Origin: a virus
DNA length: 48,647 nucleotides
Strand: one strand, 5' to 3'
IMG/VR virus record: IMGVR_UViG_3300050821_000928
Coordinates: 1-48,647 of that record
Of the stretch, positions 2,200-45,047 are shown one piece after another. The translations under genes were made by a program, and so were the position numbers. Position 1 is the first letter of the stretch, and every line of letters starts with the position of its first letter. The notes under the pieces are model-generated. The model worked only from the letters and a program-made list of their open reading frames with translations, was not told the origin of the DNA and did not search any database.

Positions 2200-3482
2200 G
2201 CGATTCGGAGAATATGGGCTTTCTATTGATTAGTGAAGGCGGGGACGGACTAGGTCTAGCCTTGCGGCTAAAGGCCGAAGGCCATAAGACCTCTATGTGG
2301 ATTCGTGACCCCATGCTTGAAGGGCGTGGAGAAGGTCTCGTAGAGAAAGGAAACGCCCCAGACTTCACTCCTGTTGTAATAGCAGATTGTACTGGCTCCG
2401 GAGCGTTGCTAGATACCTACCGTGACGCTGACGCCCTAACCTTCGGTGGTAGTCAAATAGCCGATAAGCTTGAAAGTGACCGTAAATACGCTTCCTCTAT
2501 AATGAAAGAGTGCGGTATTAAACAGCCGCAGGCTAAGAGCTTTAACTCTTGGGAAGATGCCTCACACTTCGTGGAGAGTCAGGATGATTCTACTAGACTC
2601 GTATTTAAGCCCGAAGGCCATCATAGCGGTAATCTACCTTCTTATGTCTCTTACGACCGTACTGATATGCTCCATATGCTGGAGCATTATAAAACTATCA
2701 TTGGCGAAGCCGAAGCCGAGTTCATCCTCCAAGAATTCATCAGTGGTACTTGTATCTCATCCGAAGGATGGTTCTCCAAAGACCATTTTATTAAGCCCTT
2801 CAATCATACCTTCGAGAGAAAGCAATTCCTTAACGATGACCTTGGCCCGTCCGGAGGATGCACCGGAAACGTTGTCTGGGCTTGCCTTGAAGATGAGTGC
2901 CCACTTTGCGAGAATCTACTCCGGCTCGAAGACTTCCTAACAGAAGTATCATACAACGGACCAATCGACATAAACTCCGTTGTCTCTAAGGTAGGCGAAG
3001 CCTATGCCCTTGAATTTACACCACGATTTGGCTATGACGCCTTTCCTACATTTCTATATGGGCTGTTCGACGGTTCATTTGGAGAGTTCGTCTGGGATTG
3101 TGCTCGCGGTGCTGCCGGAGATACCATGCCACTCCGTAAGGGCTACGCTGCGGGAGTTCGGATTTCTACCCCGCCTTGGCCTAGCGAGGACTTTGAGTCT
3201 AAGAAAGGTCTTCCAATCGGAAATCTTCGATTTAAGGACCTTGAAAGATTCTACCCCTATGAAGTATCTCTACAAGAGGATAACTTCATTACCTCCGGTG
3301 GCGTTGGAATAATAGGAGTAGCCGTTGGCTATTCGGAGAATTCGATTGATGAAGCCTTCGAAGAGGCATATAAACTCTGTAAGAAGATTCGATTACCTGA
3401 TATGCAGTATAGAACAGACCTTGCGGAACAATTCAAGTCTGATTTACGGCGAGTGTCAAGATACTTGACATTAAATGTATGA
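2196..3482 (+). CDS. PurD-like ATP-grasp ligase
   Basis: A 428-residue protein resembling phosphoribosylamine-glycine ligase (PurD): an N-terminal nucleotide-fold start, FGGSQIADKLESDRKYA where PurD has its FGPS..A..E.SK segment, KPEGHHSGN in the ATP-grasp core, then DDLGPSGGCTGNV matching the PurD D.GPNTGGMG loop, and LEFTPRFGYDA matching the metal-binding EFN.RFGDPE. Two positions differ (T for N, YDA for DPE), so substrate or metal use may have changed. The family activates a carboxylate with ATP and joins it to an amine. The gene overlaps the endolysin by four bases, an odd place for a purine enzyme. One palindromic site lies in its last codons. Confidence 0.75.
   Translation: MSDSENMGFLLISEGGDGLGLALRLKAEGHKTSMWIRDPMLEGRGEGLVEKGNAPDFTPVVIADCTGSGALLDTYRDADALTFGGSQIADKLESDRKYASSIMKECGIKQPQAKSFNSWEDASHFVESQDDSTRLVFKPEGHHSGNLPSYVSYDRTDMLHMLEHYKTIIGEAEAEFILQEFISGTCISSEGWFSKDHFIKPFNHTFERKQFLNDDLGPSGGCTGNVVWACLEDECPLCENLLRLEDFLTEVSYNGPIDINSVVSKVGEAYALEFTPRFGYDAFPTFLYGLFDGSFGEFVWDCARGAAGDTMPLRKGYAAGVRISTPPWPSEDFESKKGLPIGNLRFKDLERFYPYEVSLQEDNFITSGGVGIIGVAVGYSENSIDEAFEEAYKLCKKIRLPDMQYRTDLAEQFKSDLRRVSRYLTLNV
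3454..3470. repeat. Dispersed palindrome, copy 1
   Basis: TGTCAA-GATAC-TTGACA followed by TTAAAT, inside the 3' end of the ATP-grasp gene and just before the next start codon. One of seven dispersed copies. Confidence 0.8.
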
Positions 3483-3709
3483 GTATCCTACTCGAAGTTA
3501 CAACTCGTAAGAGTTCTTCCAATGGAGTCTTAGTTGACTTTACGCTGAACGCCAACGGCGAGATAGCTTCGCTTACTCTTAGCGAAGCTAACTTCGTTGA
3601 ATTACTTGGTCTGGTTGGCGGAGATAAGACCTCTTATGTAAATAGTCAAATGACCTCTTTAACTACGTTATCAACGGCTATAGGAACTAAGACCTTGGTG
3701 ACTCCGTAA
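3479..3709 (+). CDS. Small phage protein, unknown
   Basis: A 76-residue beta-then-helix protein with no recognised motif. It overlaps the upstream gene (ATGA) and the downstream ATG (TAATG), which indicates translational coupling within the tail-gene run. Confidence 0.65.
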   Translation: MSILLEVTTRKSSSNGVLVDFTLNANGEIASLTLSEANFVELLGLVGGDKTSYVNSQMTSLTTLSTAIGTKTLVTP

Positions 3710-4323
3710 TGGCATATCCTCCGACATTCGACCATCCGTGGGATATTACCGCTCCTGCGGATACGCAGTTGGCGAATCTTTTGGGTCAGGATATTCGTAA
3801 CCTAAAAGATGACGTTATGCAAAGGTTCACGTCATTAGCCGGGACTATTGCTAATAGACCAGCCCCCGAGACGGTTAATGCTACTTGGGGAGGTTCAGGT
3901 TATGGACTTCTCTATTTCTCGACTGATGAGAATAAAGTTTATCAATGGAATGGAGCGGCTTGGATTGATGTAAGTGGAAAGATAGGACTTTCTAGAATTC
4001 CTACAGTAGGTGGGATTGTTTTACTTCCTACTGGGGCTATTACTATTCCTGTTTGGAAAGCTCCGTATGCTTGTACAGCGACTTTTGTTCATGGTTGTTC
4101 TGGTGCTAGTGATGGTTCTGGAATAACAGTTAATGCTGGGAAGCTTTTTATTGGTGATTTTTTAGCGGCTAATCTATCTGTGCCATCTGATGGTGATTTT
4201 CACGATGCTACCGTTACTCAGAACTCCTCTTTTGCTATTGGGGAGAAGGTTTATATTAAATTGTCAGGTTTTAGTGGTGCTCCCAGTCAAGTAACTATTC
4301 AGGTAGATTTTACTCGACCATAA
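3709..4323 (+). CDS. Putative tail or fibre protein
   Basis: A 204-residue protein. The N-terminal half carries a pattern common in phage fibre-associated proteins (DIRNLKDDV, then YFSTDENKVYQWNGAAW). The C-terminal half is a glycine- and serine-rich beta domain that could be a receptor-binding or trimerisation fold. Coupled to both neighbours by overlapping stop and start codons. Confidence 0.65.
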   Translation: MAYPPTFDHPWDITAPADTQLANLLGQDIRNLKDDVMQRFTSLAGTIANRPAPETVNATWGGSGYGLLYFSTDENKVYQWNGAAWIDVSGKIGLSRIPTVGGIVLLPTGAITIPVWKAPYACTATFVHGCSGASDGSGITVNAGKLFIGDFLAANLSVPSDGDFHDATVTQNSSFAIGEKVYIKLSGFSGAPSQVTIQVDFTRP

Positions 4324-4877
4324 TGAGTCAACAAGGACCAAATTTTCCGACTGTAGGTGTAGACGCTGGAGGAGGAACTGGAGGAGATACTTGGAGTACT
4401 CCGTCGGCTATCGAGGTAGATGATGGAAGTTTTTCTGCTTATTCAATTACCGCTGGAAGCAGTCTAACAACTAATATACTTCGGGGGACTGGGTTTGGCT
4501 TTTCAATTCCTACTTTTTCTACTATAAATGGAATTTTGCTTGAAATTAAAAGAGCGAGTCAGTTTAGTTTTCCTCCTCAGATTACGGATAATCTCGTCCT
4601 CCTGCTAAAAGCGGGTGTTGAGGTTGGGAATAATGAAGCTAATGCCACTCCGTGGCCAGTGACGACTTTAACCTATATTTCGTATGGTGGTTCTAGTAAC
4701 CTTTGGGGAACAAGTTGGACTCCAGCAGATATTAACAATGCAAATTTTGGAGCTGATTTGCAAGGAATCTGTGATAACTCAGCTGGACAAACTGGTCGTG
4801 TAGATGCATATAGAATAACAGTTTATTATACTTTACCAGGTACAAGTTTTAGTGGTGTTATAGTAACGGACTCTTAA
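4323..4877 (+). CDS. Putative virion beta-sandwich protein
   Basis: A 184-residue protein with a Gly-rich N-terminus and alternating hydrophobic beta strands (GILLEIKRAS, LVLLLKAGVEVG, AYRITVYYTLP). This resembles the small jelly-roll or lectin-like domains found on phage tails. No catalytic residues are evident. Inferred to be a surface or tail component from composition and position. Confidence 0.6.
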   Translation: MSQQGPNFPTVGVDAGGGTGGDTWSTPSAIEVDDGSFSAYSITAGSSLTTNILRGTGFGFSIPTFSTINGILLEIKRASQFSFPPQITDNLVLLLKAGVEVGNNEANATPWPVTTLTYISYGGSSNLWGTSWTPADINNANFGADLQGICDNSAGQTGRVDAYRITVYYTLPGTSFSGVIVTDS

Positions 4878-4878
4878 A

Positions 4879-6495
4879 ATGCCTCAACTTCAAGATAGAA
4901 AACAAACTCGCTCGGAAGAACTCCTTGAGTTCCCTATGACCGGTCCCTTTGGGGGGACTCAAAGCGAGCTTCCTTCTACCGAAATAGAAGGGCTTGGATT
5001 CGTAGATTGTCGTAATGTAATTTTACGTCGTGGCACAGCAACAGTCCGTCCCGGATATAATGCTTTAACAGCTTTGCCGGATGGGTTTCCCGCTCTTGGA
5101 ATAGCTGATTTCTTTACGTCATCAGGTGCTCATGTTCAAGCGGCTATAACAAAATCAAACTTATATAAATGGACCGGTTCCGGATGGACTGTTATTACTG
5201 GAGCAGGTTTTACTGGCTCAGCCTCACAGATTTGGTCTTGGGATGTTATAGCTCAAAAGCTTGTTTTTTCTCAAGGCGCGGACAAGATTTGGTCATGGGA
5301 CGGGGTAGCCGCAGGTTATGTACAGACTAGTGCTAACGCACCGGCTTCTGCAAGCATAGCTGAGATAGGACTTCATCTTGTAGCCTTGAATACTCTTGAA
5401 GGTGGAACACAGTTCCCTCAAAGGTACCGATGGTCTGGACTGGCTGACCCTACCGATTGGACCTCTATAAACGCTGGCGTTAATGACAATTTGAATAATC
5501 TCGGTCCTGGTCAGAGCCTTAAGAAACTTGGTCAGTATGGTTATGGGTGGCATTTTAACGGTATTATTCAACTCCAACCAACTGGTATCGGGACTAATCC
5601 TTTTGCATTCTATCCAATAGTTAATGCCTCTCTTGGACTGCTTGCAAGGTCTTCGATGGACCATTTCAGTCGAGATGGAATTGAGCAAGCTGTTTACTTG
5701 TCATCGGATAATGTGTATGTATTTAACCAATCGTCTTTGACTCCTATTGGGGATGCTCCTCTAGATGGACGTAGGCGTGTTGGGGCAAGGTCAAGAATTT
5801 TAGCGGATGTATTTTCACACGGAACATTAACCGATGTTTTTGGTTTTGTTACGAATACTATTGCTGGACAGCCTTTTAATGCCTATTGGTTGGTAATCCC
5901 TGGAACTTCATGTTGGGTTTATAACTTCGACGAATCGAATTGGACAAACTTCGTTTTTGATAAAACTGGAGTCGTTCTTGGAAACTTTCTCAAAGCCGCC
6001 GTTCCACGGATTATGGACTTGGTTGGACAAATCCTCGCTCAGGGTTGGACCCCACAGAATCTTGTAAATACAAGTCCTTTTCCAGGACTGGCAATCTCTT
6101 TCTCGGATGGAACATTTGGATATATCGACTTTACAAATTATTCGGAGACAGCCTGGTCAATTACTGGACCAACGCATGTTTTTCAAGATGTTAGACATGG
6201 TAAAACCTTGAAAAAGTTTCGACTTCGTGTTGTCGACCTCGGTCAGGTCACATATACCTTAACAGCTACTAGCAATACTGGACAGACCGATACACGAACT
6301 TTAACTATCGGGAATGGCTCAGGTGACGTTCTTTCCGCAGTTGTGGAACTGAAAGTTTCTGGAATGAGAATAAATTGGAAGATTTCAGGTTCAGCCGGCT
6401 CGCCTGGCTCAATTGTAGAATTCTGTCCTATTTATAGTATCTCTGGAGAACAACGTGGCGGTTCGTCGGACGAAGCGTCGGTGGTGATTTCGTGA
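4879..6495 (+). CDS. Tail hub or DNA-stabilisation protein (podovirus-type)
   Basis: A 538-residue protein opening with DCRNVILRRGTATVRPGY, the style of opening found in podovirus tail proteins that plug or extend the portal. Repeated tryptophan-containing blades (LYKWTGSGW, QIWSWD, KIWSWDGVAAGY) suggest a beta-propeller-like body, and the C-terminus is a beta-sandwich. A tail hub or stopper role is inferred; no tape measure or tube gene is present, which fits a short tail. Confidence 0.65.
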   Translation: MPQLQDRKQTRSEELLEFPMTGPFGGTQSELPSTEIEGLGFVDCRNVILRRGTATVRPGYNALTALPDGFPALGIADFFTSSGAHVQAAITKSNLYKWTGSGWTVITGAGFTGSASQIWSWDVIAQKLVFSQGADKIWSWDGVAAGYVQTSANAPASASIAEIGLHLVALNTLEGGTQFPQRYRWSGLADPTDWTSINAGVNDNLNNLGPGQSLKKLGQYGYGWHFNGIIQLQPTGIGTNPFAFYPIVNASLGLLARSSMDHFSRDGIEQAVYLSSDNVYVFNQSSLTPIGDAPLDGRRRVGARSRILADVFSHGTLTDVFGFVTNTIAGQPFNAYWLVIPGTSCWVYNFDESNWTNFVFDKTGVVLGNFLKAAVPRIMDLVGQILAQGWTPQNLVNTSPFPGLAISFSDGTFGYIDFTNYSETAWSITGPTHVFQDVRHGKTLKKFRLRVVDLGQVTYTLTATSNTGQTDTRTLTIGNGSGDVLSAVVELKVSGMRINWKISGSAGSPGSIVEFCPIYSISGEQRGGSSDEASVVIS

Positions 6496-6971
6496 TTAAT
6501 ACTATCCCACCAAGTCTTGACTTCGTTCCTGAGGATAATAGTTCTTTGAAGACTTTCGGAACGATGTTGAATAAATTATGGCAGAAGCTTTCTTTAACTT
6601 TGGCCCCTGTATTTACTGCCTCTCAAGTTTATGTTCCTGTAGTAACTGCTGGAGCAGGGACTTTTACTACCGTATCAGCGGTTGGAAGATATATACAATT
6701 TGGAAGGTTAATCTTTGTTCAAGTTGTAGTGACTATAACAAATAAAGGAACAGCAACAAACGCTTCCGTGACCTTACCAGTACAGGCTCAAGGCTCTAAT
6801 CGTCAAATGCTTCCTGGAGTAGATATTGGTGTTACAGGGGACGCTCTTACAGGTGACATTGGTTTCGGTGGCGATTTTACGAAGTTTTTGATTCGTGATT
6901 ATATTGGTGGGGCGGCTTATATTGCAAATGGTGCTATTTTGGCTTTAACTGGAGTTTATGAATCAGCTTAA
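6492..6971 (+). CDS. Putative tail fibre-associated protein
   Basis: A 159-residue protein with a short helical start (MLNKLWQKL) and then a beta-rich domain with the phrase VGRYIQFGRLIFVQVVV, typical of trimeric fibre or knob domains. It overlaps the hub gene by four bases. Likely a fibre or receptor-contact protein; no enzymatic signature. Confidence 0.65.
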   Translation: MINTIPPSLDFVPEDNSSLKTFGTMLNKLWQKLSLTLAPVFTASQVYVPVVTAGAGTFTTVSAVGRYIQFGRLIFVQVVVTITNKGTATNASVTLPVQAQGSNRQMLPGVDIGVTGDALTGDIGFGGDFTKFLIRDYIGGAAYIANGAILALTGVYESA

Positions 6972-6981
6972 GGAGATATAA

Positions 6982-7446
6982 ATGGCCCGTCAATTTTGGA
7001 TGCATTTAGCACAATCGAAAATCGCACTAGTAACGGCTACGACAAAGACCATAGCTTCGCTAACGACTCCATCTACAGGGTGTAGAATAGCCATTCAAGC
7101 TATTACTATGTCTTTTGATGGCACATCAAATACCGCCCAGCCGGTAGAATGCCATTTACAGAGAATTACTACTGATGGGACTGGGACTACTCAGAATCCG
7201 GTAAAGAAAGATTCTGATATTGCCTCCGGTATCTTGACTACTGCTAAAGTCAATTATACTATAGAACCTACTACGTATACGGCTAATGCTATTTTAGCTT
7301 CGCTGTTGATACATCCGCAGGCAGGCGTTCAATATCCGTTCCCGTTGCCAGGCGAGATAATTATACCAGCTAATGCTATAGTCGGACTTTGGGTTAATGC
7401 GCCGGCATCAGTAAATTGCCTTTTCATGATGGAAGGTGAGGAGTAA
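6982..7446 (+). CDS. Putative virion surface protein
   Basis: A 154-residue beta-rich protein starting MARQFW behind AAGGAGATATAA. It resembles in size and opening the later gene at 8949-9536, which starts MARQYF. It may form a minor fibre or decoration subunit; the function is not recognised. Confidence 0.6.
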   Translation: MARQFWMHLAQSKIALVTATTKTIASLTTPSTGCRIAIQAITMSFDGTSNTAQPVECHLQRITTDGTGTTQNPVKKDSDIASGILTTAKVNYTIEPTTYTANAILASLLIHPQAGVQYPFPLPGEIIIPANAIVGLWVNAPASVNCLFMMEGEE

Positions 7447-7448
7447 AA

Positions 7449-7610
7449 GTGAAAAGGATACTTGCTTGGATTAAGCAACGGTTCCACGGTCATGATTTCA
7501 GTAAATCGTATTGTAAATTTATCCATCTCACAGGGCCGATATGGCCTTTCAAGGACCCTCTCTTGAAGATATGTTCTTGCGGAGCAACTAGGATAGTGGA
7601 GAATAAATGA
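7449..7610 (+). CDS. 53-residue cysteine-containing protein
   Basis: A GTG-started frame behind GGTGAGGAGT, encoding a basic N-terminus and then SYCKF and KICSCGATR, which could form a small zinc site. Its TGA overlaps the next ATG (ATGA). This supports a real, translationally coupled gene. Function unknown. Confidence 0.6.
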   Translation: MKRILAWIKQRFHGHDFSKSYCKFIHLTGPIWPFKDPLLKICSCGATRIVENK

Positions 7611-8084: not shown

Positions 8085-8089
8085 CGGCT

Positions 8090-8257
8090 ATGAGGGCAGA
8101 GTCCATCCGAATCCGCTCAGATACGATAGAAATTTATCGTGCATGGTCGGAGAACACAGGTAGGACTCTTGTGGGTCTTATCGAGATGGTACTAATGGAA
8201 GCGGCACAGCATTATCTGGATGGACTGAATCCGAAGTTACATCAGGACAAGAAATGA
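8090..8257 (+). CDS. Ribbon-helix-helix-like small protein
   Basis: A 55-residue frame: a short beta strand (SIRIRSD), a helix (IEIYRAWSENTG) and a second helix (LVGLIEMVLMEAAQHYL). This is the order of CopG/Arc ribbon-helix-helix DNA-binding proteins. The stop overlaps the next ATG (ATGA). It sits inside the tail operon and may regulate late genes; the fold call comes from pattern only. Confidence 0.6.
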   Translation: MRAESIRIRSDTIEIYRAWSENTGRTLVGLIEMVLMEAAQHYLDGLNPKLHQDKK

Positions 8258-8934: not shown

Positions 8935-8948
8935 TTAAGGAGAATTAA

Positions 8949-9536: not shown

Positions 9537-9543
9537 GGTATAT

Positions 9544-13720: not shown

Positions 13721-16032
13721 TGGCTGCTCCACAAACAGGTCAACAGAGTATCTCTGATGATACTGTGAAAGCATTCTTGTCAGTTCCGGATGACAAGAAG
13801 CGCGAAGCTCTTGGAAAGATGAGTCCGGAAGCGAAGACGGCATTACTTGGGGGATTGAAGACTTATAAAGCTAAGAATCCGACTCAGACTCCGACGGCTA
13901 CCACGCAAGTACCTCCGGTAGGACAGCCTACGACTCCTAAGGCTCCGCCTTCGTTCTTGCCGACTCAACCTCCAGTTCCCGCGGGTGAACAGATTAAGAC
14001 GGGGATTAAGGGAATTGGGCATAATCTTGGTGCTATGGCTTCTACGTTCTTTGGTCATCCGGCCATCAGCCTACCGGCTGGAGCTATTAGTAAAACAAGT
14101 CCAGAAGTTAATATACCTGCTCGTGGTAATAGTATGACCGCCCATGACGTTTATGCATCTATGGACGCGATGAATAAGAACGTAACCGAAGCTTGGAAGT
14201 CAGGTCGAGTCGTAGAGGCTACGGCAAAGACAGCCTTAATGGCTGTTCCAGTTCTATCGGCTATAGGAAGTGGAGGAGACCCTCTAGCCGTGGCTGCTTC
14301 AATGGCTTTCGTGTCACCATGGTTGACCGACAAGTTTGACCAAGCCAAGAATGGACAGCCAATCGCTGCGGCCATAGAAGTGGCTGGAACTCTAGGAATA
14401 CCTCATCTAGCTGGTAAAGCAATACCGAAGGTCAAATCCTATGGAGAAGCCGCAGTTAAATGGAATGATACGGTTGATAAGGCTGCTAAAGTTCGGAGTG
14501 ATTCGTTCGATACGAGTAAAGCTGCGCTTATAAAGATAACGGCGGACATTAATAGAACTAAAGTCGGGAGTCTTGTTAAGTCTATTTCTGATGAGGACAT
14601 GGTTCAGTCCGCGAATAAAGGGCTGCCAGGTTCCTTTGACCCTGCTTCGCTAAGTCAGAGACTTAATAAATTTAAGAACGAAGTTCTAGGCGGTAAGGCT
14701 TCGAAGGTTGAAACCCCCGCCGTAGAAAAAGCCACGAAAATGATTAACGCCCGTGGCAAAGCTATGTCATGGAATGATTTGAAACAATTAAGAACTTCGT
14801 TATTTGAGATTGATAAGTCTCCGAGAGAGACGGCAATTTTTGCCAAACTGGATGAGTCAATAGAATCGGAACTCTCCAAGAGAGCAAAAGACATTGGTCG
14901 GGAGGCTCAGGATAAGGCTTATAATACTATAACAAAAGCTATGTCCGAGCATAAGAACGGATTGCTTGGAGATTTAATTCACGCAGAAAATGACCAAGAC
15001 TTCTTTGACACTTTGAAGAAGGCTAATAAATCAGTTGAATTAAAGAACTTAGATAGTGACCTAGCGCAGTTAGGTCTTCCTGATAATTACCTAAAGAACT
15101 TATATGATTCTCATACTAATATACATAGAGTGGTAAGCAACGCTTCCGCTGGATATTCTGGAGGAAAGATTTCATCTTTGAAACAACATCCATTTGTTGC
15201 GGGGACTGCGGGTGCTGTCGCATACGGGACTGTTCCAGGATTCGGTCAGAAACTAGTAGCAAGCTTAATGGCTACTATGTATGCTGCGGATTTGGCGAAT
15301 CGTGCTGGCGCCATAGAGGAAATGAAGAAGCTTCCTTATACAGGGCCCCCGAAGGGATTACTTGGTAATGCTTTACAAGTCAAACCGGTAGGGCCGTCGC
15401 CTTTGAATCCGCCTTCTGCTCCGCAGGGAGGAACTCCGTTAGGAATGTCTCCTAGTCCAACACCGACTTCAAGCTCCGGTCCTCCCTCTGCTCCGACCGG
15501 AGGTCCGGCTACCGGAGGTGTGTCCCCTGCGCCCGCATCGCCACCTAGCGCACCTCCGGTAGTTCAACCTTCGGTTCCGCAGGTTAAAACAGTTCCATTA
15601 AGTGAGCACATAATCCAAGAAGGCGTCAGAGAAATTCAAGAAATTAAACGTGCGGAGCAGGCTAAAGTAACTAAGGTTCCTGAAGGTCAGCACGGGACCG
15701 GACCAGAAGCCGAGAAAATAAAAGGTGCTGAACGGAAGGCTAAAGAGCGAGCCAAGTCACTCTCCGAGCAACCTCGTGCCCCGAAACAAGGTGGCAAGCC
15801 AATGGTTAGTGAGTCTTCAACGGAGTTGACTACCGTTAAAGAATTAGAAGAACATATCGGAGAGCGTTCAAATGGTAAACTTATGTTGAGTGCTTTACGT
15901 AAGTATGCGAAGCAAGAAGGTATCGGATTAGATAGTGATATTTATAAAGAGTTTCTGAAAGAAGCCGTTCAGAAAATGGGTCCTTCGGAGAGAAAGACTT
16001 TAGGGACTAATATCCCGAAGGAGGTACCCTAA
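13720..16032 (+). CDS. Large ejection-type virion protein, probably frameshift-extended
   Basis: A 770-residue protein. Residues 1-90 are Pro/Thr-rich. A hydrophobic block follows near 165-205 (TALMAVPVLSAIG, PLAVAASMAFVSPWL) and could enter the membrane. Helical segments fill 250-500, a Pro/Ser/Gly linker lies near 550-625, and a charged helical end follows. The zero frame stops at TAA 16030-16032, immediately after CCC with AGGAGG two bases upstream. The +1 frame stays open for 121 more codons with an ADP-ribosyltransferase-like sequence and no start codon. An 891-residue fusion by +1 frameshifting is the simplest reading. Confidence 0.75.
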   Translation: MAAPQTGQQSISDDTVKAFLSVPDDKKREALGKMSPEAKTALLGGLKTYKAKNPTQTPTATTQVPPVGQPTTPKAPPSFLPTQPPVPAGEQIKTGIKGIGHNLGAMASTFFGHPAISLPAGAISKTSPEVNIPARGNSMTAHDVYASMDAMNKNVTEAWKSGRVVEATAKTALMAVPVLSAIGSGGDPLAVAASMAFVSPWLTDKFDQAKNGQPIAAAIEVAGTLGIPHLAGKAIPKVKSYGEAAVKWNDTVDKAAKVRSDSFDTSKAALIKITADINRTKVGSLVKSISDEDMVQSANKGLPGSFDPASLSQRLNKFKNEVLGGKASKVETPAVEKATKMINARGKAMSWNDLKQLRTSLFEIDKSPRETAIFAKLDESIESELSKRAKDIGREAQDKAYNTITKAMSEHKNGLLGDLIHAENDQDFFDTLKKANKSVELKNLDSDLAQLGLPDNYLKNLYDSHTNIHRVVSNASAGYSGGKISSLKQHPFVAGTAGAVAYGTVPGFGQKLVASLMATMYAADLANRAGAIEEMKKLPYTGPPKGLLGNALQVKPVGPSPLNPPSAPQGGTPLGMSPSPTPTSSSGPPSAPTGGPATGGVSPAPASPPSAPPVVQPSVPQVKTVPLSEHIIQEGVREIQEIKRAEQAKVTKVPEGQHGTGPEAEKIKGAERKAKERAKSLSEQPRAPKQGGKPMVSESSTELTTVKELEEHIGERSNGKLMLSALRKYAKQEGIGLDSDIYKEFLKEAVQKMGPSERKTLGTNIPKEVP

Positions 16033-16431: not shown

Positions 16432-16448
16432 TGTCAACTAGCTTGACA
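16432..16448. repeat. Dispersed palindrome, copy 2
   Basis: TGTCAA-CTAGC-TTGACA followed by TTAATATA, in the 89-base spacer before the gene at 16486. Its right half also reads as a -35 box, with TATAGG 18 bases downstream. Confidence 0.8.
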
Positions 16449-22091: not shown

Positions 22092-22483
22092 TAGAGGTCG
22101 GCTCCTTGATAAATTAGTAATGTTCTTATATCAGGTGGTTCATAGTTAGGGCCTTTTATAACTTTTCCATCTTCTCGGTAGAGTGGCTTCCCATCCAGTC
22201 CAAGTTTAGATAGGTTAGATTTATGTATCTCGTTTACTACGGTTTCAAGGTCAATTCCGTATTCAATAGCCGCCCCAAATACAACGTATGCAAGGTCTCC
22301 TAAGGCGTCGGCTACCTCAACAAGGTCATTAGATATAGACGCGGAGCGTAACTCTTCTAGTTCCTCTTCGATTAGATTTTCACGAAGTAGCTGGCGTTCT
22401 CTAGAAGGGAAGCTTGGAACATGAGCAGTATTTACCTCGTATTTGTCATGAAATTCTAAAACTTGTTCTTGTATTTTATTCAC
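22091..22483 (-). CDS. MazG-like nucleotide pyrophosphohydrolase
   Basis: A 130-residue protein with GTG start. LIEEELEEL (39-45) and ADALGDLAYVV (58-68) form the E-x-x-E and D-x-x-x-D metal-binding helices of all-alpha NTP pyrophosphohydrolases (MazG / PRA-PH superfamily). Such enzymes cut NTPs or dNTPs to monophosphates; phage versions are thought to clear non-canonical nucleotides or tune ppGpp-linked signalling. Located next to an ABC-GNAT fusion and upstream of the UDG-exonuclease, consistent with nucleotide-pool control. Confidence 0.85.
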   Translation of the reverse strand: MNKIQEQVLEFHDKYEVNTAHVPSFPSRERQLLRENLIEEELEELRSASISNDLVEVADALGDLAYVVFGAAIEYGIDLETVVNEIHKSNLSKLGLDGKPLYREDGKVIKGPNYEPPDIRTLLIYQGADL

Positions 22484-23588
22484 CTTTTATCAACCTTTCC
22501 GCATCGGAACGATTCATCGAAGGTCCGATATACATAAATACGGCACACCTACGCCCTCCAAAGCCTCCAACAGTTGAAGTTTCACCTCTTTTGGGACTGA
22601 ACTCACCTGAATTCTTAACTTGGATCCAATCCTTACTTCTCTGATATGAACGTATCCAGGCAGGATGGTTCGGATAAGAATGAAGTCGGTATCCCACAGC
22701 TTTATGGGCGCTAGCCACTGTTCCGGCGAGTACCATAGCGAGTCCCAACCCCTGATAATCAGGAAGCGTGACCATGCGTGTGAATCCACGAATGTCGTTA
22801 ACTCTTGGGTGAGGTCTATGCAGAACTCCGCACATAGAAGCAATTCTATCTCCGACGTAAAGTCCATAGCACCGAGCCGCCTTATTGAGGTCTTGACTCA
22901 TATAGTGAAATTCACGGAAAAGGTTCCAAGTTTCGTATTTGACTCTTGATATTGAGACATTAATTGGTGGCCGGCTGCGCCGAAGGGACCTCCAGGTAAG
23001 TCGGATAGGATTACCTGGTTCGAGGATCCAATCTGGGTCGAGCCATTCAATTATGTCGTAATGACAAGAGGCTGCTACAAATTTCCTACCTGTTCCTGAC
23101 TCTCGAATATACTTTTGAACAGCATAGCTGGTTGTTTGAGCTACTTGTCTGTCAACAACCGAAGTAAACTCGTCAATGGAAACCAAATTATTAACGCTAA
23201 GAAGACGCCTAGCAATATCGCAGCGAAATCGCTCACCGTTAGAGAGGACATTATATGGGCGTAGCCAAGCAGGAATCGTATTAAAACCCACAGACTGACA
23301 AGCGCGAGCAATATCTTCCATGGATATGTCCGGAAAGTCATCAATAACACTTTTGGATACCCAGTCAAGTTGTTCAGGTTCACCGAATAGTCCTTTCAAG
23401 GTTAGGGTCTTACCACAGCCTGAGGGCCCCACTATCAATCCGACTGACCAAGGTTGTGAATCAAGATTTATATCACCTTCCAAATTTACGGAAAGTTTAT
23501 CTTCGATAGGTACCTCAAACATGGAACCTAGCATTTCCACCCTATGGGTGCGTTCTATAAATGAGTCTTTTATAATTGATATTTTCAT
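22476..23588 (-). CDS. ABC-type ATPase fused to GNAT acyltransferase (COG2401-like)
   Basis: A 370-residue protein from ATG 23588, which overlaps the ParB-like stop (ATGA). N-terminal ABC ATPase: GPSGCGKT (54-61), signature LSNGE (115-119), Walker B SIDE (137-140), H-loop His166. C-terminal GNAT domain (about 190-350): FHYMSQDLNKAARC, LYVGDRIASMCGVL and the acyl-CoA loop LPDYQGLGLAMVL. This architecture is known as a phage and bacterial family of unproven role. The GNAT part recalls the Mom-like group that modifies adenine in phage Mu DNA; that link is inference. No transmembrane segments, so not a transporter. Confidence 0.85.
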   Translation of the reverse strand: MKISIIKDSFIERTHRVEMLGSMFEVPIEDKLSVNLEGDINLDSQPWSVGLIVGPSGCGKTLTLKGLFGEPEQLDWVSKSVIDDFPDISMEDIARACQSVGFNTIPAWLRPYNVLSNGERFRCDIARRLLSVNNLVSIDEFTSVVDRQVAQTTSYAVQKYIRESGTGRKFVAASCHYDIIEWLDPDWILEPGNPIRLTWRSLRRSRPPINVSISRVKYETWNLFREFHYMSQDLNKAARCYGLYVGDRIASMCGVLHRPHPRVNDIRGFTRMVTLPDYQGLGLAMVLAGTVASAHKAVGYRLHSYPNHPAWIRSYQRSKDWIQVKNSGEFSPKRGETSTVGGFGGRRCAVFMYIGPSMNRSDAERLIKGE

Positions 23589-24310
23589 GCCACCACCGGT
23601 ATACACTTTAGTCCCGCACTTCGTAATTGTGCTAGTAAGGTTTTCTGTTGAGCCTCGTCATCGCAGGTTATGACTATCTTATATACGTATACTGTAGCTA
23701 CTCGCGGTGCGGCCTTCCCTGAAGCCGTAGCGATAGCAAGCTCCAGCCGCCTTTTGGCTGCTTCTCTGGAAGGTTCCTTAGCCAAGATTGGTAACTTGTT
23801 TATTAACGCTGCCATGTCAAGGTCATTAGAAGTATTTTCTGGTGACTCTCCTATCATAGCCGCTAGGCTACGGACACCAAACCCTCTAGGCTGTCCAGCT
23901 TGCGGGGCGCCTGGAATTGGGGGGCCGTGAAGAGACTGCATTAACTCTAAGAGCTTCGCTTTACCTTTAACTTGTTCTACCCAGGAGAGTTCCTTCCTAC
24001 GGATGTTCTCTTCCATTTCAATAGCTACGCTTAGGAGTTTAATCTTGGGGTCGTCCGACCGAAGGTCTTCGCGCCATATGTAATGCTTCGCATGTTCAAG
24101 GTCGGTCAAGCCCATTTGTTTCATAGCGGTGAGACGACGTTCCCCAGCCACCAATTCAATATGAGTTAAATCGTTTTCTTGAGTTTGTTTCAAGACTATC
24201 GGCTCAATTAATCCGTGTTCCTTTATGGAATTGACTAGACCTTGAATGTCTCCGAGGTCTTTGCGGATACGATTGGAGATTATGATTTCGTCTATTTTGA
24301 TTGATTCCAT
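23585..24310 (-). CDS. ParB-like nuclease/CTPase-domain protein
   Basis: A 241-residue protein with an N-terminal ParB fold: IDEIIISNRIRKDLGDI, LVNSIKEHGLIEPIVL, and VAGERRLTAMKQMG (GERR 56-59, the CTP/phosphate-binding box). A helical middle (LAAMIGESPENTSNDLDMA) may be an HTH, and the C-terminus is a short beta domain. Chromosomal ParB proteins bind parS and slide on DNA using CTP; phage homologues have varied roles. No ParA partner is visible. The four-base overlap with the ABC-GNAT gene suggests they work together. Confidence 0.85.
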   Translation of the reverse strand: MESIKIDEIIISNRIRKDLGDIQGLVNSIKEHGLIEPIVLKQTQENDLTHIELVAGERRLTAMKQMGLTDLEHAKHYIWREDLRSDDPKIKLLSVAIEMEENIRRKELSWVEQVKGKAKLLELMQSLHGPPIPGAPQAGQPRGFGVRSLAAMIGESPENTSNDLDMAALINKLPILAKEPSREAAKRRLELAIATASGKAAPRVATVYVYKIVITCDDEAQQKTLLAQLRSAGLKCIPVVA

Positions 24311-24796: not shown

Positions 24797-24813
24797 TGTC
24801 AACTATCTTGACA
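24797..24813. repeat. Dispersed palindrome, copy 3
   Basis: TGTCAA-CTATC-TTGACA followed by TTAATAT, in the spacer between the SSB-like gene and the SLOG-like gene and directly abutting the terminator-like hairpin. Confidence 0.8.
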
Positions 24814-30872: not shown

Positions 30873-31972
30873 TTATTAACCTCACTCATTTCAATAGCCA
30901 TTTTAATATCTTCTATTTTTGCGAGAGGGGCGTGGATTCGTCTTATTGCTGGATTATTCGGAGAAATATAGAGTGCATCTCCTTGACTGAGCAGTTGTTC
31001 CGCTCCACCTGTATTAAGTATTGTTCGTGAGTCTGTTTCAGAAGTTAATCTGAAAGAGAGACGTGCTGGGAAGTTGGCTTTAATATTACCTTCAACGACT
31101 TTGACAGACGGCCGCTGGGTCGCGGCAATAATATGTATCCCTGTTGCTCTAGCTTTTTCGGCAATTTTGCCGAGTGAGTATTCCGTACGTTTGCCATAGC
31201 TTCGCTTGTCCCCTTCTTCGTCTTTAGTTATGTCTTGAAGAGGGCTTGCAAGTTCATCTATTACCACTACGATATACGGCATCTGACGTTGAGGAAATCT
31301 TTCGTTATATTGACTGATATTCTGACAGGAACTACGTGATAGCGTTCCAAGTCTAGTGTCAATATCATTGACAATAATATCAAGATACTTTAGTATATCT
31401 ATTGTGGAATAAGCCACTGGGAATAGGAGATGTTTAGCGTTAGCGAAATGGTTGAATTCGACTTGTTTTGGGTCGCATAGAACGAAGCGGAGCTCCGTTG
31501 GTGACTTGACATAAATCAAGGAGGCTAGTATGGAATTCAACAAGGTTGATTTTCCACCGCCAGTAGAGCCAGCAATCAGGAGATGCGGTAAACCAATAAG
31601 GTCTTCGATAACGAAGTTTCCCATATGGTCTATTCCGAGGCACAAAGGGATTTTGAAAGAATCCTTTACTTTCCATAATTCTGTTACAGCATCCCTAAAT
31701 AATAGCGGATGCTTCTCCTTGTTGGGGACATAAATTCCTATCGAAGACTCGCCAGGGAGTCTCCGTACTTGAACGGCTTCGGCGCTTAGGCATATAGCCA
31801 AGTCTGGAGCCAGTCTTTCTACCGAACCTACGCGAGTAGCGTTCTTAGGGACGAATTTATATAATGTGACTATGGGACCTTCATGTACGTCTGGAAGGAA
31901 TTCTCCATCTATTCCCAGAGAGGTTAGTTTAAGTTGTAATTTCGCTAACGTAGCCAAATGATTTGGGTTCAT
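30869..31972 (-). CDS. FtsK/SpoIIIE-like DNA translocase ATPase
   Basis: A 367-residue protein holding only the motor domain. LPHLLIAGSTGGGKSTLLNS (Walker A 134-142), VLCDPKQVEF, VVVIDE (Walker B 225-230), and IAATQRPS match FtsK in order. There are no N-terminal membrane segments and no DNA-orienting gamma domain. Small soluble FtsK-type motors act in conjugation, plasmid transfer and some phages. TerL is present elsewhere, so this is a second DNA pump with another job. A palindromic site lies inside the gene. Confidence 0.9.
   Translation of the reverse strand: MNPNHLATLAKLQLKLTSLGIDGEFLPDVHEGPIVTLYKFVPKNATRVGSVERLAPDLAICLSAEAVQVRRLPGESSIGIYVPNKEKHPLLFRDAVTELWKVKDSFKIPLCLGIDHMGNFVIEDLIGLPHLLIAGSTGGGKSTLLNSILASLIYVKSPTELRFVLCDPKQVEFNHFANAKHLLFPVAYSTIDILKYLDIIVNDIDTRLGTLSRSSCQNISQYNERFPQRQMPYIVVVIDELASPLQDITKDEEGDKRSYGKRTEYSLGKIAEKARATGIHIIAATQRPSVKVVEGNIKANFPARLSFRLTSETDSRTILNTGGAEQLLSQGDALYISPNNPAIRRIHAPLAKIEDIKMAIEMSEVNK
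31357..31373. repeat. Dispersed palindrome, copy 4
   Basis: TGTCAA-TATCA-TTGACA followed by ATAATATC, within the FtsK-like coding sequence (translated as part of IIVNDIDTR). Confidence 0.75.
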
Positions 31973-33516: not shown

Positions 33517-34080
33517 TTATACTCCGTATACTTCTTTTTGTATCTTTTCCCATATTGCATTAAGTCTGGACATTTTCTCCATATTGCCGCCGTGGTCCGG
33601 ATGAAGTGTGAGACTTGCCTTTCGATAGGCACTTTGTGCCGCGTCGAATGGAATCAAGCGCATAAACTCCGATAGGAGACTATCCGTTGTGTCAAGTTTC
33701 TTGACATTAATGGATGAGTTAGTCTGCTGGTAGGCAGCTTCTACTTGTTGTTTGGAAAGGACGACTACGTTCTGGACTCCGTATACAAGTTCGCAGAGTT
33801 TAACAGTGCCATTAAGATACTTTTCGGTAAATGTCCATATCTTCGTATTAGGGTCGAAGGTACGTTCGGAGACTGGAATGTTCTTCTTCAAGAATGTTAT
33901 TAACTCAGGCTTGAAATCCGCCGATAGCCGATAGGCTTGAATGGACTTGTCCCAATAGATTTTAGCTTTTGCCATAGCGTTTGGAGTTCTTCTTCCTTTC
34001 TTCGGCATACAACTATAACAAGTAAATCTCCTGCTACCCGTGAACTGTCCAAAACATATATTACATACTTTCATATTCAA
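33517..34080 (-). CDS. Zinc finger, HARP-like and J-domain protein
   Basis: A 187-residue protein with three parts: a zinc ribbon (C6, C9, C21, C24); a middle segment, about 41-105, with IPVSERTFDPNTKIWTF that resembles the HARP domain of annealing helicases; and a C-terminal J domain with SAYRKASLTLHPDHGGN (HPD at 160-162). The J domain should stimulate host DnaK, while the other parts may bind DNA. Upstream is a 129-base leader with three hairpins. One palindromic site lies inside the gene. Confidence 0.8.
   Translation of the reverse strand: MNMKVCNICFGQFTGSRRFTCYSCMPKKGRRTPNAMAKAKIYWDKSIQAYRLSADFKPELITFLKKNIPVSERTFDPNTKIWTFTEKYLNGTVKLCELVYGVQNVVVLSKQQVEAAYQQTNSSINVKKLDTTDSLLSEFMRLIPFDAAQSAYRKASLTLHPDHGGNMEKMSRLNAIWEKIQKEVYGV
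33690..33706. repeat. Dispersed palindrome, copy 5
   Basis: TGTCAA-GTTTC-TTGACA followed by TTAATGG, inside the J-domain gene (translated as INVKKLDTT on the minus strand). Confidence 0.8.
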
Positions 34081-37168: not shown

Positions 37169-37185
37169 TGTCAAGAGTGTTGACA
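37169..37185. repeat. Dispersed palindrome, copy 6
   Basis: TGTCAA-GAGTG-TTGACA followed by TTAACC, in the spacer upstream of the leftward gene at 37145. On the minus strand TATAAA lies a few bases downstream, so the palindrome covers the -35/spacer part of a likely promoter. Confidence 0.8.
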
Positions 37186-37763: not shown

Positions 37764-37764
37764 A

Positions 37765-38238: not shown

Positions 38239-38252
38239 GCAGACTCTTCGAG

Positions 38253-38281: not shown

Positions 38282-38304
38282 TCGTGAACGTACAACTATA
38301 ACTA

Positions 38305-38844: not shown

Positions 38845-38849
38845 CTCCT

Positions 38850-39266: not shown

Positions 39267-39268
39267 AT

Positions 39269-39580: not shown

Positions 39581-39602
39581 AGGATAGATAAACTTTGATT
39601 TA

Positions 39603-41339: not shown

Positions 41340-41744
41340 ATGGACGCGAATATAGTCTTAACTCAAGTAACCGCAGGTGCTAGTGCTGTATGGATTCTAC
41401 AAGTTCTTAAGAATTGGAAAGCATTTCCACTACTCCAATCCGGTCAGAAATACGCCTCACGTACTGCAAGTGTTATTGCCGCATTCTTTATTCATGGTGG
41501 CGTTAGTTATACCTGGGACCCACAACTAGATGTTAATGGGAATCGTCATCTAGTTCTTGCTATTCCGACATTTCTTGTATTCATCACATATATATGGCAT
41601 TGGTTTGGTCAATACACTCTACAAGAGTTGATGTATCAAGGAACTATTAACAAGTCAGGTATTACTACTGACGCTACTGGAGCAACTCCTGCAAGAGTAT
41701 CTCCTTCAGGTGATGTAGTAGTTTCAGCTTCTTCGAAGGCATAA
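41340..41744 (+). CDS. Putative holin or small membrane protein
   Basis: A 134-residue protein with three likely membrane segments: VTAGASAVWILQVL, SVIAAFFIHGGVSY and LVLAIPTFLVFITYIWHW, then a polar tail. It directly follows TerL and begins a run of four small membrane proteins. A holin role is plausible; one of these must let the M15 endolysin out. Confidence 0.6.
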   Translation: MDANIVLTQVTAGASAVWILQVLKNWKAFPLLQSGQKYASRTASVIAAFFIHGGVSYTWDPQLDVNGNRHLVLAIPTFLVFITYIWHWFGQYTLQELMYQGTINKSGITTDATGATPARVSPSGDVVVSASSKA

Positions 41745-41748
41745 AGGG

Positions 41749-42198
41749 ATGGCCGACTCGAATGGCAGAACTCATATTCCAGATATTAAAGAATTAACTG
41801 CCGACCTAGATGGTCTACGAGAATTGGTAGCGTCTAAGTTCGAGTCTTTTAGAGCGATTATAGATGAACGTGATAGGCGGTATGAAGACCGTTTCACCGC
41901 AATGGATGAAAAGACCGGTCTTGCTCTCACTTCCAGTGAGAAGGCAGTTGTCAAAGCCGAAACGGCTACAGAGAAACGATTCGATTCCGTTAACGAATTC
42001 CGTGGTAGTTTGAAAGACCAAGCAGCTACGCTAATTTCTAGAGTTGAAGTAGAGTCAAAATGGAAAGCCTACGATGACAAAATCGATGACATTAAACGGG
42101 ATAGTCGAGGCCAGAAGAATTGGGCCGTCGCGTTAATGATAACCGTCGCAGTAGGCGTGATGAGTATCATTATCACTTTAGTGATTCATAAACCTTGA
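41749..42198 (+). CDS. Coiled-coil protein with C-terminal membrane anchor
   Basis: A 149-residue protein: a long charged coiled coil (LDGLRELVASKFESFRAII, VEVESKWKAYDDKIDDI) ending in one membrane helix (NWAVALMITVAVGVMSIIIT) and a short tail. This shape is shared by XhlA-like haemolysins and other lysis accessories. It probably works with the membrane protein encoded just upstream. Confidence 0.65.
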   Translation: MADSNGRTHIPDIKELTADLDGLRELVASKFESFRAIIDERDRRYEDRFTAMDEKTGLALTSSEKAVVKAETATEKRFDSVNEFRGSLKDQAATLISRVEVESKWKAYDDKIDDIKRDSRGQKNWAVALMITVAVGVMSIIITLVIHKP

Positions 42199-42205
42199 GG
42201 AAAAT

Positions 42206-42349
42206 ATGCTTCTTATCATTATACTTCTAATCTTACTTATTTTTGGTGGCGGATATGGATATCATAGTTGGGGCGCTCCAGGCAGTCTAGGTCTTGTATT
42301 AACGATTATATTAATCTTTGTTCTTCTTAGACTTTTAGGAGTTGTCTAA
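42206..42349 (+). CDS. 47-residue DUF3309-like membrane protein
   Basis: A frame starting MLLIIILLILLIFGGGYG, then HSWGAPGSLGLVLTIILIF: two hydrophobic helices around a Gly/Trp-rich turn, as in the small bacterial DUF3309 proteins. GAGG precedes the ATG by 6 bases, and the stop adjoins the next ATG. Possible holin component. Confidence 0.65.
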   Translation: MLLIIILLILLIFGGGYGYHSWGAPGSLGLVLTIILIFVLLRLLGVV

Positions 42350-42514
42350 ATGGTTCTAACTATAAGTGCTTTGATATGTTTAATTGGTCTTATAATCTAT
42401 CTAGCCTCCGATGGCAAAGCTAGCGAGGTTGGAAGGATAATGTTCGGTATCGGACTTCTCTGCGTCCTATGGAATGTTGGAGGAGTTGTTAATATACTTC
42501 CGTATCGAAAATAG
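42350..42514 (+). CDS. 54-residue membrane protein
   Basis: A frame starting MVLTISALICLIGLIIYLAS with a second helix IMFGIGLLCVLWNVGGVV: a two-segment membrane protein. Its ATG is immediately after the preceding TAA. Candidate antiholin or second holin subunit. Confidence 0.65.
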   Translation: MVLTISALICLIGLIIYLASDGKASEVGRIMFGIGLLCVLWNVGGVVNILPYRK

Positions 42515-42525
42515 AATGACTTTAA

Positions 42526-42714
42526 ATGCGCTACATGACCAAAAGATTCGACCACCAACAGAATCCTTGTAAGGGATGTTCCGAGTGTGATTGGATATTC
42601 AAAGGGACGTTACCAGTCGGTAACACATTAGATGAAATTAAAACAAAGTTCGCAGAACGATGTAAAAAAGAATTCCTAGAACATGATTGTCAACAACATA
42701 AAAGGAGACCCTAA
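42526..42714 (+). CDS. Small Cys-rich protein
   Basis: A 62-residue protein with NPCKGCSECDWIF near 12, then helices with ERCKKEFLEHDCQQH: five Cys and two His, so one zinc site is likely. Its stop codon ends at the A of the next ATG. No clear ribosome site. Function unknown. Confidence 0.55.
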   Translation: MRYMTKRFDHQQNPCKGCSECDWIFKGTLPVGNTLDEIKTKFAERCKKEFLEHDCQQHKRRP

Positions 42715-43118
42715 TGGCTAGTTTCACAAGCGTTCTTAAAAAGATTGGTCAAGTCATCCTGACAGGTAGCGGCATCGCCACTGAGGTTATGCAATTTCCT
42801 TTCGTCTCGTCTATCTTTACTGGACTTGCTAATAAACTTGGAGGCTCCTCTGCTGCTACAACAATTCAGACCGTATACGGTGACTTAAACTCCGTTGCAA
42901 GTATTATCTCGATGATGGAGGTTGCGTTCCCTACCTCCGGTAGTGGCGCACAGAAACTTGCTGCGGCTTCGCCATTGGTTCAACAGGTCGTTCTACAATG
43001 GGCCCAGTCAAGTCTTCCTGGTCATAATAGTATTAAAGTTGACCCAGCTACCTTCGCCGCTCATTGCAGTCAGTTTACTTCCGACTTCGTAAATATAATG
43101 AATGACTTCGGAGCCTAA
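42714..43118 (+). CDS. Hypothetical late protein
   Basis: A 134-residue protein behind AAAAGGAGACC; it begins with an amphipathic helix (VLKKIGQVILTGSGIATEVM) and continues as a helical Ala/Ser-rich protein. Located directly before the portal gene. It may touch membranes, or assist portal assembly; nothing specific is recognised. Confidence 0.6.
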   Translation: MASFTSVLKKIGQVILTGSGIATEVMQFPFVSSIFTGLANKLGGSSAATTIQTVYGDLNSVASIISMMEVAFPTSGSGAQKLAAASPLVQQVVLQWAQSSLPGHNSIKVDPATFAAHCSQFTSDFVNIMNDFGA

Positions 43119-43133
43119 TTAATAGCGAAGCTA

Positions 43134-45047
43134 ATGCCTGATTTCATCAAAGTCAATCTCTCTCCTGATGCCGAAGAAAAACTAAAACGGCATTTGAAGA
43201 ATCGTATTCTTGCTCTCGAAGAGGGATTGAAACAACTCCATGAAGATAAGATTAACAAATGGCGCAAAGCCTATGAGGCGACTCCTAGAGAGGCTACTAG
43301 AGATTTTCCTTTTGCTAACGCCTCGAATTTAGTCGTTCCAATCATAGGAATCTTTAGTGACACACTCCTGGCAAGAGTTATGTCAGCGGTTCTGAAAACT
43401 AGACCTCCTTGGATAGCTAAGATATTCGGTTCTCACCAAGATATAACTGACGAGCATCGAACGGCTATCGAAGATTTGATGGAATTTACAGGTATAGAGC
43501 CAGAGTTCCTAGACTTATACCGTGTATATCACGAATTCTTTGGCGAGACTATCAAGTACGGCACTTCTATGATTCTCTGTCCTCACGAAGTCCGCTACCG
43601 CTTCGATATGGAAGAATCCGCCGGCGATGGTAGTATGGGGTCTAAGAACTATAAACCTACTTTCACTAAGAACGTAGAGTATAAAGGGCCGCGTCCAGAG
43701 AAACTAGCGTTTGAGCATTTCCTAATCCCTCCCAATGCCAAGACTGTCAAGAGTGCTGACATTAAAATACACAAACGCCCCATGACGCGGAGCGAATTAG
43801 AGGAACGAAAGTTCTTCCAGATATACGAACCTAGCCGTGTAGACAGTATTCTTACGAAGCCTGATAGGACTGGTCCAGACTATACTACAACTGTTAAACA
43901 GGAATCTAGCGGAGCTAAGACTTCCAGTTCTTATGGCTACGCCGAGTGGGACCTCTATGAGTGTTGGCTAGAATGGACCACTCCGGATGGGAAGGCCCGT
44001 CCTAGAATCATCGCTACATACCACAAGAACTCCGACACCTTGATGCGTGGTATCTACGATACTCATACTCTTGACCCATGGATTCTAGGTCGTCTATTCT
44101 ATCGAGACGACATGATTTATGGTTATGGCTATGCCGAGACTATGTGGGGCTTCCAGGAGGAAGCTAGTGAATCACACAACTCCAGATTGGATAATAGGCT
44201 TATTGCGAATACGCGAGTATGGAGAGTTGACCCTGATTCGAAACTTCATGCCGGTTATCGTATCTATCCTACAGCTACCGTTCCCGCAGCCAAAGACGAA
44301 ATTGAAGCTCTTGCGGCCGGAGACATATCTCCTCAATCTATAGATGACGAGCGTTTCACATTAGAGTTGGCCGAAAGGCGAGCGGGTATCTCTCCTCCGA
44401 TGCAGGGCGCTGGTACTGGAAGTCAAGGAAAGCGCGGAATCTATTCCGCTATGGGTACTCTAGCCGTAATGCAAGATGGTAATCGTCGTACCGATTTGAA
44501 TATCTCCGACATGAGATACGCTCATACCAGACTCGGTCGCGTTATCCTCGCTGACTACGCCAAGTATGGAATCTCCGATGATATTCTAAACGTATTCGGA
44601 GATAAACGTGATGTAGTCATGGAGTCTATTAGAGCCGTGAAGGACGGAAAGATTGGTCTTCCTGTTTATTCGTCTACTTCTTCTGTTAATAGAGAAGTTG
44701 AAAAACAAAATGATTTAATCCTCGTCAATGTAATGCGTCAGCACTACCTTGGAATCGCTCAGCTAATCGCTCAAGTAAACTCTCCAATGACCCCGCCTCC
44801 AGTAGTTTCGTATTTGAAAGAGGTCATAAAAGCCTCCAACGTAGTTATGAAGTCTATTCTACGAAGCTTCGACAAGGAAGATGTTGATATTCTGATTCCT
44901 GAACCTGAGGACTCTAATGCCCAACAACAAACTGGACAAGTTCCTGGAGCACCCGGTGCAGTTCCTCCAGTGGTACCAATCAACCGCGGGGGAGATGTAC
45001 AGAGTTTACTTGCAGGATTACCGCCAGGAGGTAGTAGACAAGCTTAG
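43134..45047 (+). CDS. Portal protein
   Basis: A 637-residue protein: helical start (LKRHLKNRILALEEGLKQL), FPFANASNLVVPIIG near 60, an alpha/beta wing with LYECWLEW and the segment GYGYAETMWGFQEEAS typical of P22-type portal stems, then a long Pro/Gln-rich tail. It forms the dodecameric ring for DNA passage. A palindromic site lies in the coding region. The last 131 bases overlap another gene. Confidence 0.85.
   Translation: MPDFIKVNLSPDAEEKLKRHLKNRILALEEGLKQLHEDKINKWRKAYEATPREATRDFPFANASNLVVPIIGIFSDTLLARVMSAVLKTRPPWIAKIFGSHQDITDEHRTAIEDLMEFTGIEPEFLDLYRVYHEFFGETIKYGTSMILCPHEVRYRFDMEESAGDGSMGSKNYKPTFTKNVEYKGPRPEKLAFEHFLIPPNAKTVKSADIKIHKRPMTRSELEERKFFQIYEPSRVDSILTKPDRTGPDYTTTVKQESSGAKTSSSYGYAEWDLYECWLEWTTPDGKARPRIIATYHKNSDTLMRGIYDTHTLDPWILGRLFYRDDMIYGYGYAETMWGFQEEASESHNSRLDNRLIANTRVWRVDPDSKLHAGYRIYPTATVPAAKDEIEALAAGDISPQSIDDERFTLELAERRAGISPPMQGAGTGSQGKRGIYSAMGTLAVMQDGNRRTDLNISDMRYAHTRLGRVILADYAKYGISDDILNVFGDKRDVVMESIRAVKDGKIGLPVYSSTSSVNREVEKQNDLILVNVMRQHYLGIAQLIAQVNSPMTPPPVVSYLKEVIKASNVVMKSILRSFDKEDVDILIPEPEDSNAQQQTGQVPGAPGAVPPVVPINRGGDVQSLLAGLPPGGSRQA
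43745..43761. repeat. Dispersed palindrome, copy 7 (one mismatch)
   Basis: TGTCAA-GAGTG-CTGACA followed by TTAAAA, inside the portal gene (translated TVKSADIK). One mismatch in the right arm. Confidence 0.65.

Follow-up and report, generated by a model that had tools for sequence, protein, structure and literature searches.

Why does a phage genome carry the same rare DNA palindrome at widely scattered places, and which protein would recognize it? The question is raised by IMG/VR virus record IMGVR_UViG_3300050821_000928, a stretch of 48,647 nucleotides that we call the window throughout, in which a preliminary description made from the letters alone had pointed out dispersed copies of TGTCAA-N5-TTGACA. 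Judging from sequence comparison, these palindromes are likely to be dispersed loading sites of a ParB-like protein encoded in the window (Table 1), and the word and the ParB appear to have changed together in related viruses; the dispersed palindromes themselves are a family-wide system, not peculiar to the window. The preliminary description had also treated the genome as a circle, and rightly so: window positions 1-224 and 48426-48647 repeat one another over ~222 bases, and the record is a circular assembly of a soil phage genome of ~48.4 kb, in which the end mismatches (~16, plus two one-base gaps, counted in alignment) are strain differences. In gene content the window is a tailed phage, combining a virion module and the ParB-like protein with a PolA/UDG-exonuclease/DUF3987 replication set, an FtsK-like motor and a Sak4-like ATPase. 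A megablast comparison of window positions 1-24000 with named phages gave no match.

Scanning the window recovered all seven copies that had been claimed, six of them exact and the last with a single mismatch. Their rarity, put earlier at about 0.003 expected occurrences, was confirmed, with 0.004 exact copies expected from composition and 12 matches at up to two mismatches, compared with a mean of 1.84 and a largest count of 6 in 100 dinucleotide shuffles. By predicted genes, four copies are coding and three lie in spacers, as had been described; the coding copies, said to occupy different frames, use only two (phases 1, 2, 2 and 2). The site at 3454, at the end of its own gene, lies eight bases ahead of the next start codon. 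A rightward TTAA extension does follow six of the seven copies directly, with ATAA after the copy at 31357, and a decayed mirror image of TTAA is often seen on the left. The common orientation that had been drawn from this extension did not hold up: when flanks were scored against the symmetrised motif, five window sites pointed right and one left, with one undecided (p = 0.22), and none of 29 genomes showed a consistent orientation at p 0.05 (lowest 0.062). Even taken alone, the window sites are spaced more evenly than random (P = 0.042). Two centres gained by position weight matrix refinement, at 14320 and 26501, were discarded as probable false positives. Separately, a further weak candidate, TGACAAAATCGATGACATTAA at window positions 42075-42095, has two mismatches and a complete TTAA flank.

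We then gathered related genomes via capsid and terminase and via ParB, and blindly scanned the longer records, 69 in number (50 with a ParB-like gene in the scanned sequence and 19 without; numbers such as G001 and L470 are our handles for records), for all 6-mer arms at gaps of 0-12; the first of these scans used one Markov null per record, and the highest null score was 7. Among the 50 ParB-bearing records, an odd-gap family reached a score of at least 7 in 31 and at least 10 in 21, compared with one and none for even-gap families, and the best odd-gap score was higher than the best even-gap score in 36 records, equal in 8 and lower in 6. Among the 19 records without ParB, odd-gap scores of at least 7 occurred in five and even-gap scores of at least 7 in one, and none reached 9; four of the five odd-gap cases (G002, G048, G050 and G081) are fragments of kin with kin-type words, and the fifth is G070. 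Strong families of odd length have the words TGTTCA, TGTTTA, TGTTGC and TGTTAA, while distant phages carry odd-length palindromes of CTATGG-, CTATGT-, TGTAAC-, TTTCGAT- and TTCAAT-type.

Counting the motif in relatives, as the preliminary description had suggested, gave a divided answer, the exact word being rare and related palindromes with other words recurring. The exact TGTCAA-N5-TTGACATTAA was found in 75 stretches among all viral contigs, and a rescan of 47 records with the shorter word yielded three copies in G002, none in G001 and one in each of the other 45, so the exact window word is not widely shared. G002 is a near-identical fragment that bears copies of the same sites as the window. 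The distant, syntenic G001 (identity to the window of 48% in PolA, 73% in the major capsid protein, MCP, and 61% in the terminase) has no exact TGTCAA copy and four exact copies of TGTTAA-N5-TTAACA, the sole 6+5+6 palindrome present there at least three times. Two of these sites lie in genes that also bear window sites (ATP-grasp and FtsK) but at other places, one lies in the ParB gene and one in a spacer; the dispersed set therefore outlasts the individual sites. Across 30 records, 136 of 226 sites fall in non-coding DNA, compared with 21.9 expected, and spacing is more even than random (combined z −6.4), in a test that treated fragments as circles, merged sites less than 150 bases apart, took genes from a crude tiling of longest open reading frames and kept G066, G096 and G103 with their top-ranked words.

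The distribution of genes points to ParB as the protein likely to recognize the sites. Three relatives (G070, G071 and G085) keep PolA, UDG-exo, DUF3987, TerL, portal and MCP and have no ParB match, and no TGT-type word stands among their four top-ranked palindromes, although weaker palindromes with other words do occur in them. Six other records (G098, G106, G109, G112, G120 and G121) have matches to only four of the 15 labelled window genes, namely ParB and three replication genes, and G117 to only two, ParB and TerL; each has palindromes of its own. Among the 15 labelled genes, it is the presence of ParB alone that follows the sites, and TerL, PolA, UDG-exo and DUF3987 are disfavoured as the binder by their distribution. 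Polar sites oriented for FtsK were also considered and rejected, FtsK not being among the labelled matches of the distant site-bearing phages and being present in G070 and G071.

Covariation leads to the same protein and to one part of it. Over 29 genomes, the three of 180 ParB columns that best tracked the motif (161, 153 and 158, partial on total identity) all fall in the helix-turn-helix, and the observed maximum was reached by 3 of 300 label permutations for ParB, compared with 70 of 300 for PolA and 122 of 300 for DUF3987. For these tests, G096 and G103 were dropped because of low-information motifs, and G066 was given its second-ranked word TGTTAA instead of AAGCTC. By eye, K at column 162 accompanies TTAA or TTTA words in 6 of 6 cases, and H at column 157 accompanies TGG in 4 of 4. 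For 21 records that lacked a usable motif, we borrowed motifs by helix similarity and located sites in 12, of which G105 is unspecific; success, defined after the output had been seen, meant that the nearest-helix motif gave at least three hits and a best score exceeding the null maximum by more than 3. Co-occurrence of gene and sites, the absence of both from three relatives and this covariation thus give good support to the earlier suggestion that the palindromes are sites for the ParB-like protein. A ribbon-helix-helix-like protein at 8090-8257, named beside it as a candidate, gave no match in Pfam.

Table 1 Coordinates of the palindromic sites and the two genes discussed (window positions; a dot marks a feature without strand)
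Feature	Position	Strand	Remark
Palindromic site TGTCAAGATACTTGACA	3454..3470	.	Last codons of ATP-grasp gene
Palindromic site TGTCAACTAGCTTGACA	16432..16448	.	Convergent spacer
ABC-ATPase + GNAT protein	22476..23606	-	Overlaps end of ParB-like gene; predicted base-modifying acyltransferase
ParB-like protein, 241 aa	23585..24310	-	ParB_N (CTPase-type) fold and helix-turn-helix; predicted binder of the sites
Palindromic site TGTCAACTATCTTGACA	24797..24813	.	Spacer ~490 bases upstream of ParB-like gene, one gene between
Palindromic site TGTCAATATCATTGACA	31357..31373	.	Inside FtsK-like gene
Palindromic site TGTCAAGTTTCTTGACA	33690..33706	.	Inside gene 33517-34080
Palindromic site TGTCAAGAGTGTTGACA	37169..37185	.	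Spacer
Palindromic site TGTCAAGAGTGCTGACA, one mismatch	43745..43761	.	Inside portal gene

The ParB-like protein matches Pfam ParB_N at 3.7e-10 and NCBIfam nucleoid_noc at 4.1e-13, the latter under that model's own cut-off. Its AlphaFold2 model (pLDDT 85, pTM 0.56) has Noc 7nfu as the top PDB match (1.9e-8), with the ParB-parS-type structure 6t1f and KorB 8qa9 also matched, and Foldseek returned Noc bound to its own site (7ol9) as well as ParB 6t1f. The alignment of ParB-like proteins conserves GxRR and EEN..R, as expected of the nucleotide-binding fold (GxRR, ENxxR-type), and modelled helices 146-153 and 157-172 form the helix-turn-helix, for which a Pfam search at 0.001 gave no match. Beyond the ParB fold, the C-terminus is a short stretch in the window protein and a methyltransferase-like half in most relatives.

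This C-terminal half, or what takes its place, bears on what the protein may do once loaded. By BLAST to the half found in G001, ParB homologues carry a methyltransferase-like half in 40 of the 50 records, and Pfam N6_N4_Mtase was confirmed in G001, G056 and L469. An unfused ParB lies directly upstream of an ABC-ATPase+GNAT homologue in nine (the window and eight others), and a single record, G122, has a ParB without assignment to either enzyme type. The window's ABC+GNAT protein matches Pfam ABC_tran at 1e-6 and, weakly and below cut-off, Acetyltransf_1 at 0.0021; a profile search matched the GNAT structure 3ec4 at 1.3e-6, and the structural model is poor (pLDDT 51), yet it matches GNAT structures. 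Acyl modification of a DNA base has been predicted for a GNAT member that is coupled to an ABC ATPase (PMC7824862). From this prediction, and from the either/or pairing of ParB with a methyltransferase half or an ABC+GNAT neighbour, we propose clamps whose probable role is to bring a base-modifying enzyme over the phage genome, by carrying or by recruiting it.

Under this proposal, each helix-turn-helix of a ParB dimer would recognize one half-site, and a nucleotide, probably CTP, would close the dimer into a ring that slides off the site, on the model of ParB, Noc and KorB. From 5-20 sites round a genome of 40-50 kb, such clamps could reach much of the DNA, carrying the fused methyltransferase in most relatives or, in the clade to which the window belongs, recruiting the ABC-ATPase+GNAT protein of the neighbouring gene; the even spread of sites is less apt for controlling a few promoters than for reaching the whole genome. 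We are less confident of a role in modification than of the loading-site reading, and we put forward only tentatively the complete scheme, in which a nucleotide-dependent clamp loads at evenly placed palindromes, slides with a methyltransferase or an ABC/GNAT acyltransferase, and so marks self DNA for protection from host defence.

Named phages were compared as well. Desulfofustis phage OP947158, which has ParB_N and N6_N4_Mtase, bears TGTCCCA-N3-TGGGACA at nine dispersed sites when up to two mismatches are allowed. Cluster O mycobacteriophages such as Corndog and Firecracker carry a 17-bp palindrome, TGTTCGG-N3-CCGAACA, in more than 30 dispersed copies, about one-third of them in coding regions, and encode a ParB-like protein, which the authors listed in 2015 as one of three DNA-binding proteins while leaving the function of the repeats open (PMC4351075). 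ParB_N is present in Firecracker gp94 (502 amino acids), the homologue of Corndog gp90, and the 25 kb of Firecracker that we searched contain 23 exact copies of this palindrome. Dispersed palindromes and a ParB-like protein are thus common to Cluster O and the window; the Cluster O protein differs in being distant and, in Firecracker, in having no methyltransferase match.

Several results weigh against the conclusions drawn so far. That missing match in Firecracker implies that modification is not a universal task of such proteins. No odd-gap family scoring at least 7 was found in 19 of the 50 ParB-bearing records, borrowed motifs gave no convincing sites in 9 of 21, and G070 and G071 score 7 with other words. 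The covariation between motif and ParB is partly confounded by descent. Pfam gave no match to the canonical ParB C-terminal dimerisation domain, and the nucleotide preference of ParB-type proteins is not reliably predictable from sequence (PMC12704722). Among named ParB-methyltransferase phages, L470 has an odd-length score of 7 with its null reaching 7, Vibrio phage VS-ABTNL-3 (L471) has an even-length score of 8, and L472 has no odd-length family; of two phages with a ParB-like protein, Staphylococcus phage 85 shows nothing clear (odd 7, nulls 4-6) and Arthrobacter phage Maja has no family. Controls without this ParB gave strong even-length families in two of seven (L474, score 21; L477, score 18), an odd-length score of 7 in L478 and one of 9 in L479 (nulls 7-8), so a ParB of this kind cannot be inferred from repeated palindromes alone; for odd-length scores of at least 10, however, the difference between records with and without ParB stands. 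As to the words concerned, L471 has four exact copies of CAATCG-N6-CGATTG (174, 6569, 23360 and 38801); Alcaligenes phage QDWS535 (L474) has 13 copies of TCCTAA-N2-TTAGGA at up to one mismatch between 25208 and 47629, about half of the genome only; and Klebsiella phage PCCM_KpPS2 (L477) has 13 of TTGACG-N4-CGTCAA at up to one mismatch, genome-wide (4844-48516).

A ParB-like clamp might bind these sites and act on transcription, not on the DNA bases, as a long-range repressor like KorB or a genome-wide anti-silencer like VirB; the binder is common to this reading and to the modification scheme. We regard such transcriptional roles as rather unlikely, yet as serious rivals. By sliding, KorB reaches promoters at distances of up to 1.5 kb (PMC11790492), the anti-silencer VirB is related to ParB (PMC10770331), the non-coding excess of family sites (136 of 226) is a bias that operators would also show, and Firecracker has its ParB-like protein without a methyltransferase match. 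Against this stand the even genome-wide spread, the position of at least three window sites mid-gene and the association with a base-modifying enzyme in 49 of 50 records.

The preliminary description had offered operators or stoperators of a phage regulator, and a separate repressor would indeed find precedent in the genome-distributed sites of Cluster A phages (PMC9283540) and in the strong even-length palindromes of the two control phages. We consider it very unlikely. Cluster A stoperators are asymmetric, oriented with transcription (PMC4351075) and bound by a monomeric repressor (PMC9283540); the window sites resemble them in being many and genome-wide, but fit poorly in being palindromic, with no consistent orientation in the 29 genomes. 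Pfam scans of 51 window proteins, in which small open reading frames were covered only in part, revealed no repressor or integrase, and of the 15 labelled genes it is ParB whose presence follows the sites. More doubtful still is DNA partition, the sense in which the sites had been called centromere-like. Plasmid-like phage N15 has such a dispersed centromere, and the ParB fold suits one, but the same scans of 51 proteins, with the same partial coverage, showed no ParA, and a methyltransferase-like domain is fused to 40 of the 50 homologues. The Cluster O phages, whose repeats are similar, moreover lack a parAB system and yielded no stable lysogens (PMC4351075). Sites of a host protein, or sigma-70 promoter-like words repeated by chance or for host regulation, are hardly credible: the right arm does hold TTGACA, but the relatives' words do not, exact copies are expected at 0.004 and the words covary with a phage protein.

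Dispersed sites of ParB-family proteins are known. Noc, a ParB paralogue that binds membrane and controls division, has palindromic NBS sites scattered over the chromosome; it supplies the best NCBIfam and PDB matches to the window protein, but is cellular. KorB of plasmid RK2, matched in structure (8qa9), is a ParB-family clamp that slides from OB sites (PMC11790492) and differs in repressing transcription with KorA. Phage fusions of a ParB-CTPase and an N6N4-methyltransferase, the domain pair of most homologues here, have been described as commoner in phages, their role being left open and perhaps anti-defence; we found no DNA sites reported there, and 'palindrom' does not occur in the main text (PMC12704722). 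The GNAT+ABC-ATPase system has the same domain pair as window positions 22476-23606; it was published for a small subset of jumbo phages in a paper whose main text does not mention ParB (PMC7824862). The literature that we searched contained no paper joining ParB-methyltransferase fusions, Corndog repeats and dispersed ParB-family sites.

On the loading-site reading, a class of phage ParB-like proteins for which the literature leaves the role open (PMC12704722) would gain a proposed DNA target, and the Corndog-like 17-bp repeats, unexplained in 2015 (PMC4351075), a candidate binder. The related viruses would constitute a natural library of ParB/site pairs with differing specificities. If the clamps do deliver base modification, self and non-self DNA would be told apart with a handful of loading sites per genome.

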